This document shows, in pieces, positions 26,659 through 30,148 of a DNA stretch of 35,606 nucleotides. A program made the position numbers and the translations under genes. The stretch is taken from assembly GCA_018725175.1 (NCBI GenBank), contig QLTX01000003.1:1-35606 (forward strand). The letters run 5' to 3'. The stretch comes from Candidatus Psychracetigena formicireducens (lineage in GTDB: Bacteria; Coprothermobacterota; HKB111). Positions within the stretch are counted from its first letter, which is position 1. Each line of letters begins with the position of its first letter. A model generated the notes under the pieces. It ran no database searches. It worked only from the letters and a program-made list of their open reading frames with translations, and was not told the DNA's origin.

Positions 26659-27083
26659 CCTGTTCTACCATCCCTAAGTCTTATTTGAAGCCATACTCCT
26701 TCTGTTCTAAGGACTGTAAACTCTGTTCCCAGTGTTAGAGTTCTGATAACAGAGAAGTTAGTCCCCGATCCTGATCTCATATTTAAAGATGAGGAAGTAA
26801 CTGTTCCGGTTTGTGTGGGGGTTGATGGAGTAGTCGTTAAAGTAGCTATTTGGTTTTTAAGAGTGGCAATCTCTTGTAAAAAAACTCTATTCTGAGCTTT
26901 AAGTAGGTTAATTTCTCTCATTAGCTCATCAAATTTTGCATCTACATAAGATTTGGTTACAATGGGGTCGTTACTTGACCCTGGTGGAGCAGTTTGGGCT
27001 ATCAGCAAGTCGTTAATTCCAATTACTGATAATAAACCCACTACAGAGATTAAAATAGCCAGCAAATAAATCTTTTTCTTCAT
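26622..27083 (-). CDS. Secreted or anchored coiled-coil protein with SH3b domain
   Basis: A 153-residue protein with an N-terminal hydrophobic segment (about 5-28), a short coiled coil (about 48-85, 'FDELMREINLLKAQNRVFL'), a Thr/Pro linker, and a C-terminal bacterial SH3 domain (about 94-150: 'LNMRSGSGTNFSVIRTL', 'GRTGWVHSGFV'). SH3b domains usually bind cell-wall peptides. AAAGGAGG (27098-27091) lies 7 nt before ATG 27083. The overlap with the SpoIID-type gene suggests that the two act together on the cell wall; the exact role is unknown. Confidence 0.88.
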   Translation of the reverse strand: MKKKIYLLAILISVVGLLSVIGINDLLIAQTAPPGSSNDPIVTKSYVDAKFDELMREINLLKAQNRVFLQEIATLKNQIATLTTTPSTPTQTGTVTSSSLNMRSGSGTNFSVIRTLTLGTEFTVLRTEGVWLQIRLRDGRTGWVHSGFVRLSP

Positions 27084-27127
27084 ATTAAATCCTCCTTTTA
27101 AAAGTAATTAATTCTAACTAACTCACT

Positions 27128-27158
27128 ATTATACGCAATTATTGCGTCTATATGACCA
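27128..27158 (-). promoter_or_regulatory. Promoter with overlapping palindrome for the SH3b-spoIID-type operon
   Basis: On the minus strand TATAAT (27133-27128) lies about 35 nt upstream of the SH3b ribosome site. A weak -35 (TGGTCA, 27158-27153) is 19 nt away. The spacer next to the -10 box contains a palindrome, ACGCAAT-T-ATTGCGT (27133-27147), placed where a repressor would block polymerase. Confidence 0.45.
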
Positions 27159-27301
27159 TTTTGGGAGTTACTTATCTTCATCCCGATTCTCTATCAAAAT
27201 GATAGCATATCACTTATTTATAATCAATAACCGTAGCACTGTGTCCAACAGAACTATCCTTAAGCTGCTTATAGTAGTCCACCAGCTTATAACTGTGATG
27301 T

Positions 27302-27345
27302 TAGAATTATATTATAATATAATAGAATTATATTATAATATAATT
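27302..27345. repeat. Two tandem 21-bp AT-only palindromic repeats
   Basis: The 21-nt unit starting TAGAATTATATTATAATATAA occurs twice without a gap (27302-27322 and 27323-27343). Each copy contains a perfect palindrome (18 bp at 27306-27323, 20 bp at 27326-27345), so the symmetry centres are 21 bp apart, two DNA turns. It ends 16 nt before the DUF1461 start. The rest of the 278-nt gene-free stretch 27084-27361 holds the SH3b promoter and a 7-bp inverted repeat (27261-27267 with 27283-27289); I see no gene in it. Confidence 0.85.
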
Positions 27346-27361
27346 AAGTTAAAAACAATCA

Positions 27362-28075
27362 ATGGTGGTTTTTGTGACGATTAATAAAGGATTAATAACC
27401 TTGGTTTCTATGTTGGTTTTAATAGGTGTGGTAATGAGCTCTACTTATATAGTTGCTTTTAATCCTCTTTTTTATATCTACGGGTTAGATAAGCATAACA
27501 CCCTGGAGCAGGCTGAATTACATACAGTTGATAGGCCTATTGAAATATACAATTCCCTAATTAGATTTTTCTTTTCTTTTTCTACCCCCTCAGTTTTTTC
27601 TGTAAAAACAGATTCTGGTTACCTGACCCTATTTAATACCAAGGAAATAATCCATTTACAGGATGTGAGAATTTTAATTCTCCTGGGGATAGTGGTTCTA
27701 TTCCTGATTATAGCTGCTTTATATATGCTTTTAAATAAAAAAGATATTAAGTTAAGGAGTAATCTTCTTTCTATTAGTAGTGGTTTTAGTTTTATAGTTC
27801 TTCTTTTTCTGGGCCTCTTGATTTACTATTTTTTTGATGGGGCTTTTACGCTTTTTCACGAGATTCTTTTCTGGAACGATTTCTGGCTTCTTGACCCCAC
27901 CACCGACATCATGGTAGTTATTTTCAATGAAAACTTCTTTTTTGACTCTTTTCTTTACATCTGGATTATCAGCTTGTTTATCACTCTGGTTACTTTTTCT
28001 ATTACTTTTTTTAGCAGGAAGGTTATTTTCAAATTCCAGGATAACTCCATCTTCAGTAATAACCAGAGAAGCTAA
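27362..28075 (+). CDS. TIGR01906/DUF1461 family integral membrane protein
   Basis: A 237-residue membrane protein of unknown function from a family found mainly in low-GC Gram-positive bacteria. Hydrophobic helices lie at about 10-32, 101-124, 137-158 and 192-217. Family marks are 'HTVDRP' after helix 1, 'FNTKEIIHLQDVR' before helix 2, and 'LFHEILFWNDFWLLDPTTD' with 'NENFFFD' in the second half. No good ribosome site precedes ATG 27362; GTG 27374, 5 nt after GGTGG, is a good alternative that removes four residues. The last 107 codons (324 nt with the stop) overlap the 3' end of topB on the opposite strand in codon register. The strong family match in the overlapped part shows this is a real gene and not a shadow of topB. 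Confidence 0.88.
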   Translation: MVVFVTINKGLITLVSMLVLIGVVMSSTYIVAFNPLFYIYGLDKHNTLEQAELHTVDRPIEIYNSLIRFFFSFSTPSVFSVKTDSGYLTLFNTKEIIHLQDVRILILLGIVVLFLIIAALYMLLNKKDIKLRSNLLSISSGFSFIVLLFLGLLIYYFFDGAFTLFHEILFWNDFWLLDPTTDIMVVIFNENFFFDSFLYIWIISLFITLVTFSITFFSRKVIFKFQDNSIFSNNQRS

Positions 28076-30088
28076 ATATTTTTTCCCTGCTCTGGAGGTA
28101 AACCATAAAGGTCCAATCTTTTTATTTTCCAATAATTTTTCTGCTTCTTTAGAAGATATAATTCTACCAAAGCTTTTTTTCCAGATGGTCATTTTACAGC
28201 CCTCTTTGTATCCTTCACAAGCGTAGGCTAAACGGTTTTCTTTTACATTTTTCCCGCATAAAGGGCAGGCTGTACCCAGGGCCACCCTTCTGGTTACCGT
28301 AAGTGAAGAACTGGTTTCGGAGGCTTTAATACCTTCGACCATATTGACAACAAACTCTTTGATATCTTTCATAAAAGCGTCTCTGGTTTCCTTTTCTTTC
28401 TCAATCATTTTAAGTCTGAATTCCCATTCGGCGGTAAGGTCTGGAGAAATTAAATCTAGGTTTTCTTTTTCAATAACTTCCACGAACTCTTTACCCTTAG
28501 AGGTAATTTTTAATAAATTAGCTTCCCTCTCTATGTACCCATACAAAATTAGCTTGTCAATTATTTGTGCTCGGGTGGCTGGAGTGCCCAGTCCTTTGTC
28601 TTTTAAAGCCTCTTTTAGTTCTTCATCATCTATTAGTTTCCCGGCAGTTTCTAAAATGGAAATAAGGGTACCATCATTGTAATGAGGAGGAGGTTGGGTA
28701 ACTCCTTCTTCTATATGAGAATTAATAACTTTTGCAGGGTCGCCTTTATTTAACTGGAAAGCTATCCTGGTTTCTCCAGGTGCCCGGTCATAAACTACCG
28801 ACCATCCAGGTTTGATCATTACTTTTTCTGAAGTAATAAACAGTTCTTTTTCCACCAGGGTTTCTATATATACTTTCCGGTATAGGTCTGGATGGTAAAA
28901 AGCAGCTAAAAACCTTCTTACTATTGCATCGTAAACTCTAACTTCATCTTTGCTTAAACTGGTTAAAACCGGTTCAGTGGAGGTGGGTACAATGGCGTGG
29001 TGGTCAGTTACTTTGGTGTCATTAAATATTCTGGTTTTAAGGTTGGTTGTTTTTCCCAGAGGAATTGTATAGGGAGAATAAACCGAGCTCTTTAATGCTT
29101 TTATTATTGCTGGCATCTCTTTGGTATAGGAAGCAGGTAGGTATCTGCTATCGGTCCTGGGATAGGTTATTAATTTCTTAGATTCATACAAAGTTTGAGC
29201 GATTTTCAAGGTACGAGAAGCAGAAAAGCCAAATCTCTGGTTAGCTTCTTTTTGCAAAGAGCCCAGGTCAAATAAAAGGGGAGCAATTACCTTTTCTTCA
29301 GCTTCTTTAAAAGTTTTTATCGTACCGTTTTTATTTTTTATCCTCACATTTATTTCTTCCATTGATTTTTTGTCAAAAGACCTGTCGCCCTCGGAGCCCT
29401 GCCATTTTCCTTGATAAGAACCTTTATCAGTTAAAAAATCTGCAAATAATTCGTAGAAAGTTTGTGGGATGAAGGATTCTATCTCCCGGTCCCGCCTGGC
29501 AATTATTGCCAGAGTTGGTGTTTGAACTCTACCTACAGGAAGAAGAAGCTTGTGTTTTAAAGTAAAGGAGCGGGAACCGTTAATACCTACCAACCAATCA
29601 GCTTCAGCTCGACTTTTAGCTGCTATATATAATGGATTTAGGGACTCCTGGTTAATTAAATTTTTAAGTGATTCAGAAATAGCTTCCTGAGTTAAGGCAT
29701 TTAACCAGAGCCTTTTCACTGGAGTCTGACATTGGCTGTATTCGTAAATATATCGGAAAATTAACTCTCCCTCTCTTCCTGGATCGCAAGCATTTACTAA
29801 CTGTTTAACCTCTTTTTTCTTGATTAGTTTTAAAAGTATATCCAGTTGTTTATGGTCTTTGGATTTGATTTTAAAGACCTCGGGAATTATCGGAAGAGTT
29901 TTCCAGGACCACCATTTAAGTTTCTTGTCATAATCATCAGGATTATAAAGTTCAAGTAAATGCCCTGATGCCCAGGAGACAATATAATTATTCCCCTGAA
30001 AAAAACCACCCTTACTTTTTTCAAGTTTTAAAAAACGGGCAAGAGAATCTGCCACACTAAGTTTTTCTGCAATAATCAGCGTATTCAT
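27752..30088 (-). CDS. topB: DNA topoisomerase III (type IA) with lysine-rich tail
   Basis: A type IA topoisomerase that passes single strands and resolves intermediates of replication and recombination. From ATG 30088 (AGGTG just upstream; a GTG at 30094 is possible) it has 778 residues. The Toprim domain has 'LIIAEK' (E8) and 'CDPGREGELI'; the catalytic tyrosine is Y309 in 'LITYPRTDSRYL'. 'GLGTPATRAQIIDKL' is typical of TopB. A zinc-finger-like CPLC...C...C element lies near 620-645 and a final type IA C-terminal repeat ends at 'ILEFEN'. The last 90 or so residues are low-complexity and basic (23 Lys and 4 Arg). That tail, plus about 18 residues of the conserved end, is encoded opposite the DUF1461 gene. 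Confidence 0.95.
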   Translation of the reverse strand: MNTLIIAEKLSVADSLARFLKLEKSKGGFFQGNNYIVSWASGHLLELYNPDDYDKKLKWWSWKTLPIIPEVFKIKSKDHKQLDILLKLIKKKEVKQLVNACDPGREGELIFRYIYEYSQCQTPVKRLWLNALTQEAISESLKNLINQESLNPLYIAAKSRAEADWLVGINGSRSFTLKHKLLLPVGRVQTPTLAIIARRDREIESFIPQTFYELFADFLTDKGSYQGKWQGSEGDRSFDKKSMEEINVRIKNKNGTIKTFKEAEEKVIAPLLFDLGSLQKEANQRFGFSASRTLKIAQTLYESKKLITYPRTDSRYLPASYTKEMPAIIKALKSSVYSPYTIPLGKTTNLKTRIFNDTKVTDHHAIVPTSTEPVLTSLSKDEVRVYDAIVRRFLAAFYHPDLYRKVYIETLVEKELFITSEKVMIKPGWSVVYDRAPGETRIAFQLNKGDPAKVINSHIEEGVTQPPPHYNDGTLISILETAGKLIDDEELKEALKDKGLGTPATRAQIIDKLILYGYIEREANLLKITSKGKEFVEVIEKENLDLISPDLTAEWEFRLKMIEKEKETRDAFMKDIKEFVVNMVEGIKASETSSSLTVTRRVALGTACPLCGKNVKENRLAYACEGYKEGCKMTIWKKSFGRIISSKEAEKLLENKKIGPLWFTSRAGKKYLASLVITEDGVILEFENNLPAKKSNRKSNQSDKQADNPDVKKRVKKEVFIENNYHDVGGGVKKPEIVPEKNLVKKRKSPIKKIVNQEAQKKKNYKTKTTTNRKKITP

Positions 30089-30148
30089 AAACACCTGTTA
30101 ATTTATAGTATAATCATAGTATACAAGAATTTATTAAGGCGGTGTTAA

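Follow-up and report, generated by a model that had tools for sequence, protein, structure and literature searches.

A 324-nucleotide convergent, in-register overlap between a Lit-family membrane protein gene and topB in Candidatus Psychracetigena formicireducens

Cells seldom have long overlaps between established genes, and those that have been surveyed were mostly judged to be annotation errors. What is to be made of a locus at which a membrane protein gene and a topoisomerase gene run into each other for more than 300 nucleotides? The locus lies in a window of 35,606 nucleotides, the whole stretch of DNA analysed here (contig QLTX01000003.1, positions 1 to 35,606), from Candidatus Psychracetigena formicireducens. 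A Lit/DUF1461 gene (27362-28075, forward strand, 237 aa) and topB, encoding DNA topoisomerase III (27752-30094, reverse strand, 780 aa from a GTG codon), converge there, and direct reading confirmed the claim of an earlier note on this DNA that they overlap in register, with exactly 324 nt in common. The locus provides a clean natural case in which to ask whether a DNA enzyme can acquire a basic tail by overprinting the opposite strand of a membrane gene, and how far one gene constrains the synonymous codons of another. Most probably, these are two genuine genes that overlap tail over domain, topB having lost its stop codon and overprinted an older Lit gene, with the resulting tail either tolerated or kept.

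The two genes and the geometry of their overlap

By their profile matches, both products are genuine proteins of unrelated families, in agreement with the earlier note. The forward-strand product matches PF07314 (E=1.3e-26, 94.1 bits for a cut-off of 24), a Pfam family formerly called DUF1461 and now “Lit,” for lipoprotein intramolecular transacylase, an identity that had previously been missed. Its residues 14-217 also match TIGR01906 (76.5 bits, cutoff 74.8). Since it misses the cut-off of the NCBIfam equivalog lptranacylLit (41.6 bits vs. 400), it is classed as a member of the DUF1461/TIGR01906 family, with a transacylase activity that is only presumed. Lgt (PF01790), the maker of the diacyl precursor, is found in the same genome. 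Four transmembrane segments are predicted (residues 14-32, 104-122, 136-154, and 197-215), and the protein matches the crystal structure of Bacillus cereus Lit (7b0o, E=5.8e-10), in which His85 and His153 are catalytic and Val89, Phe149, Phe157, and Trp162 are conserved (PMC8275575). In the alignment, His85, His153, Val89, Phe149, Phe157, and Trp162 correspond respectively to His98, His166, Val102, Phe162, Phe170, and Trp175, His98 and Val102 being placed via the HxxDV motif, where the phmmer pairwise alignment slipped by a few residues. His98, Val102, His166, Phe170, and Trp175 are also invariant among the homologues of relatives belonging to another family of the phylum (family f2). His98 (27653-27655) lies outside the overlap and His166 (27857-27859) inside it, as do Phe170, Asn172, and Trp175 downstream (27869-27886, all on the forward strand); the overlap thus contains Phe162, His166, Phe170, Trp175, and the family motif. 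A scan of IMG/VR for Lit relatives returned nothing, and a single-sequence structure prediction of low confidence (mean pLDDT of 54.9) was excluded from the analysis. The start of Lit is uncertain, either ATG at 27362 or GTG at 27374, with no clear Shine-Dalgarno sequence before 27362. Just upstream, an AT-rich direct and inverted repeat (27302-27350) with TATAAT-like boxes and an inverted match to itself (27305-27345) is possibly the promoter region of Lit; the sequence agaattatattataatataat is present in it twice.

The topB product matches NF005829 above the family cut-off (E=5e-203, 676 bits) as well as PF01131, PF01751, and PF13342, and has a Toprim domain, a type IA core and a C-terminal repeat. 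Its more likely start is ATG at 30088, preceded by GGTG, over the GTG at 30094. The PF01131 match in TopB (28367-29632, reverse strand) is the sole one in this assembly, and a single match was likewise found in the sister species and in each of five same-phylum relatives, one of which is a genome on one contig (survey of G001-G003, G005, G007, and G008). No TopA was found by this PF01131 search in the assembly, the sister, or the five relatives, and topoisomerase III may be the only type IA enzyme of the lineage.

The overlap (27752-28075, both strands) sets second codon position over second codon position (phase 123:321), so that Lit codons 131-238 lie opposite topB residues 674-780 and the topB stop. 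In this register, the Lit codons TTA, CTA, and TCA read as stops in topB. Reading upstream from the Lit stop, the first in-register leucine codon of the forbidden kind is the TTA of codon 131, the complement of which is the topB stop TAA. The topB frame is free of stops until 27754 and, therefore, if topB is translated, the ribosome has to continue for 86 codons along the strand opposite the Lit catalytic domain. The domains meet tail to tail: the TIGR01906 match of Lit ends at codon 217 (28012) and the Toprim_Crpt C-terminal repeat of TopB (residues 632-688, 28031-28201, reverse strand) ends at 28031. The overlap is thus two-sided, a second point that the earlier note lacked, with the tail of each gene covering a domain of the other. 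On the one hand, the C-terminal tail of Lit (codons 224-238, stop included) covers the last 15 codons of the TopB repeat, a part of the topB core. On the other hand, the TopB tail (residues 695-780, 27755-28012, reverse strand), 86 aa with approximately 22 lysines and a net charge of about +17, runs beneath the catalytic domain of Lit. No intrinsic terminator was found within 26900-28500, which comprises the overlap and its surroundings.

Codon usage and composition of the TopB tail

With 324 nt, this overlap far exceeds all others among 38 convergent junctions in approximately 600 kb of this genome: after the spacing of -324 come -41, -28, and four of -4, and the remainder are zero or positive. 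The genomic background for codon statistics comprised 668 kb of contigs of this genome; contigs whose GC is atypical, L113 (GC 0.421) for example, inflate the empirical background and were excluded from it. The region L113:7426-8607 displays strongly atypical third-position usage, and this contig is perhaps a binning contaminant or a recent transfer.

The codon counts of the earlier note proved exact: TTA or CTA encode 11 of the 20 leucines of Lit outside the overlap vs. 0 of 14 inside (Fisher's exact test, p=6.6e-4), and none of the 12 serines inside is encoded by TCA. The accompanying estimate, a chance of about 1.4 in 100,000, was right as to improbability and too extreme in size. When the Lit protein and the codon use of the genome are taken as given, a frame of 106 codons is open with a probability of 5.6e-5 and the 86-codon tail with one of 1.2e-4. 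Empirically, on contigs of typical GC, in-register windows within genes are equally open in 0.27% of cases at a length of 106 codons and in 0.77% at 86 codons. The overlap is therefore unusual, yet less extreme than 1.4e-5, and it was ascertained by its openness.

These figures bear on two explanations of the tail. According to the first one, the overlap is functional and selected: the basic tail would bind DNA, and selection on topB would keep Lit free of TTA, CTA, and TCA and poor in purine-ending codons. The modelled probability of about 1e-4 favours it, as does the depletion of purine-ending Lit codons inside the overlap (11 vs. 26.2 expected) compared with outside (42 vs. 39.4 expected), a contrast that just 0.03% of gene segments equal. 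The coding score across the overlap, +16.8 in the topB frame vs. a neutral 0.0 in the Lit frame, points the same way. However, once leucine and serine are omitted, the contrast is weak, being matched by 3.4% of segments for purine endings and 7.9% for A endings. What is strong in the codon signal is thus the avoidance of stops, the very property by which the overlap came to notice.

According to the second explanation, the overlap is a by-product of chance: topB would have lost its stop and met a stop-free stretch of Lit, and the tail would be neutral and shorten once Lit drifts to TTA, CTA, or TCA. Movement of stop codons is the accepted source of convergent overlaps (PMC2174442; PMC4161906). 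Among 1257 combinations of a gene 3′ end with a register on contigs of typical GC, 26 leave the antisense frame open over 86 codons or more (of 419 genes, 3, 22, and 1 in the respective registers). Nonetheless, the 2-over-2 register is a strict one with 3 of 419, and Lit is rich in leucine and serine, hence the value of 1.2e-4 for the tail.

The composition of the tail counts in favour of chance and against selection. The earlier note had pointed out that T-rich hydrophobic codons of the membrane protein are read as Lys, Asn, and Glu codons in topB, and simulation bears this out: with the Lit protein, the codon use of the genome and no in-register stops, 21.3 ± 2.7 lysines are expected over the whole overlap and 23 are observed. 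Likewise, the net charge over the whole overlap is 14 vs. 17.6 ± 5.2 in simulations, and the acidic content is also what Lit and codon use yield anyway. Because the Lit protein and codon use already predict the composition, the basic character of the tail is a by-product of the register that requires no selection. Selection for lysine-richness was consequently discarded as an unnecessary explanation. A deficit of aromatic residues in the overlapping part of TopB (4 vs. 9.5 expected, attained in approximately 1% of simulations) is the sole compositional hint of selection on TopB. By analogy, a lysine-rich tail could nevertheless aid TopB in holding DNA, since lysine repeats raise the processivity of Streptomyces TopA and the lysine-rich C-terminal extensions of actinobacterial TopA bind DNA (PMC7398561).

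The locus in relatives and the direction of overprinting

The nearest relative compared is the sister species, Candidatus Lithacetigena glycinireducens HKB111 (QLUP01000032.1, 85% TopB identity), a serpentinite-spring bacterium (PMC9751293). Its topB contig ends within the overlap, of which 34 codons are readable, 13 of them tail codons. A second HKB111 contig begins just short of the repeat upstream of Lit, and the remainder of Lit is absent from the HKB111 assembly, falling in the gap between C128 and C131. Overlap codons 131-204, the remaining 74, rest on one contig of a metagenome-assembled genome (MAG), and none of the relatives compared spans the whole overlap. The earlier note had proposed to look for persistence of the overlap among orthologues, and in this second species it persists over the 34 readable codons, approximately the first third: they are collinear without indels, the Lit stop is at the same place (TAA replaced by TGA), and both frames are open, topB passing the point where the TopBs of family f2 end and remaining open to the end of the contig. 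Of the 18 substitutions, 9 affect the third and 7 the first codon position of Lit, and only 2 the second position, which both genes share. Within the 13 tail codons, it is Lit that is conserved: there are 8 changes, 6 of which affect third positions of Lit, where they are silent for this gene and mostly alter TopB, and every Lit change is either silent or a replacement of Thr by Ser or Ala.

That the sister is still open speaks for a selected tail and, as persistence over at least 34 codons, against a mere accident, but the tail residues have changed freely (D/N, S/R, N/Y, S/G, and K/E). Furthermore, only 3 of the 13 HKB111 tail codons are one synonymous change away from a topB stop, and therefore the sister says little on selection for openness. 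The earlier proposition that the open frame “is now kept” thus goes beyond these data, with 13 tail codons in the sister, 3 of them informative, and a codon contrast matched by 3-8% of segments when leucine and serine are left out. A tail kept by selection and a tail merely tolerated are given about equal weight, neither of them reaching an even chance by itself. A bolder version, in which a single step equipped the topoisomerase with a functional tail for DNA binding, read from the complement of a membrane gene in codon register, and selection now polices the synonymous codons of Lit, is unlikely; the genetic code would make such a step productive by turning a hydrophobic strand into a lysine-rich one.

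A sequencing or assembly artefact, i.e., a false base that removed the topB stop or a misjoin that fused the two genes, has precedent: of 178 convergent overlaps annotated as longer than 60 bp, 124 were put down to 3′-extension errors (PMC2478687). In addition, the locus comes from a single MAG, and the sister contig breaks here. Yet the collinear HKB111 contig, with no indels and both frames open past the end of the f2 TopBs, largely refutes an artefact for codons 205-238, and an indel would break Lit too, the motif of which is intact. A frameshift artefact is ruled out on these two grounds, and an artefact of any kind is very improbable.

The ancestral state is deduced from family f2, which has 38-40% TopB identity and a different gene order. 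In four of its five representatives, the topB open frame encodes 687-698 aa and the tail past residue 697 or so is missing, TopB here being approximately 85 residues longer; the length rule of a survey of convergent overlaps (PMC2478687), applied to this pair, designates topB as the partner that exceeds its relatives. The fifth representative (G003) has a 743-aa TopB frame with a basic tail that appears unrelated by inspection. The length of Lit is normal and its C-terminal tail is similar in length to that of the longest-tailed relative compared. The direction previously proposed, with topB extended across a Lit gene that was already there, is supported because the conserved domain and catalytic residues of Lit fill the overlap, Lit has its usual length, and the topB tail is absent or unrelated in family f2. 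The reverse order, Lit laid over an older topB tail, could appeal to the basic tail of the 743-aa frame of G003, which occurs with no such overlap, but it is the least probable of all, given that this tail bears no resemblance to the present one and that the overlap is filled by Lit residues common to relatives and B. cereus.

Under the preferred reading, overprinting of Lit by topB, the ancestral topB would have ended near residue 690-700 (approximately 28000-28020 in the window), like its family-level relatives. Loss of its stop, or of a spacer between the genes, would have let topB run on to the TTA of Lit codon 131. The new tail would have been lysine-rich and hydrophilic automatically, because the register converts T-rich hydrophobic codons into Lys, Asn, and Glu codons. 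Lit would dictate most of the tail sequence, and the only strong demand of topB on Lit would be that leucine and serine codons avoid TTA, CTA, and TCA. The tail probably acts as a flexible, basic appendage to what is apparently the sole type IA topoisomerase of the cell; it would be tolerated, and it may be of mild use in holding DNA.

In family f2, Lit and topB share a strand, Lit preceding topB by approximately 2 kb (approximately 4 kb in G003, contig L040), with one to three genes between them. Lit and topB are thus near neighbours in two families of the phylum, in differing orientations (f2 contigs L037-L041). The convergent arrangement may have arisen via local inversion.

Known overlaps and basic tails

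Long convergent overlaps of prokaryotes have been surveyed (Palleja et al., 2008, PMC2478687; PMC2174442) and reviewed (“Overlapping genes: a window on gene evolvability,” PMC4161906), and the Lit/topB pair is an extreme, unusually long example of this already known type. As in known cases, the genes overlap 3′ to 3′ in one of the three known phases, one partner is longer than its orthologues, and the origin would be stop movement; 324 nt is far beyond the 60-bp threshold for long overlaps (PMC2478687). Unlike the surveyed overlaps, the pair involves two well-characterised families, includes a catalytic residue and is retained, over the readable part, in a second species. The laoB, ano, asa, and pop genes of E. 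coli O157:H7 are similarly encoded opposite genes that are older than they are (PMC5810103; PMC5960689; PMC6294744; PMC7103648). These are new embedded or nearly embedded ORFs supported by RNA-seq or ribosome profiling, whereas in the Lit/topB overlap, as read from the sequence, an old gene has been lengthened at its 3′ end and therefore needed no new promoter or start. The pair also follows the hydropathy rule of 2-over-2 sense/antisense registers, by which one strand gives a hydrophilic product and the other a hydrophobic, membrane-type one (PMC10400600); here, both products come from real genes and the membrane protein is the older partner. Finally, the tail resembles the lysine-repeat tails of actinobacterial topoisomerase I (PMC7398561) in that it extends the C terminus of a type IA topoisomerase with basic residues, but it is found on TopB instead of TopA, is not repeat-based, and has a composition imposed by another gene.
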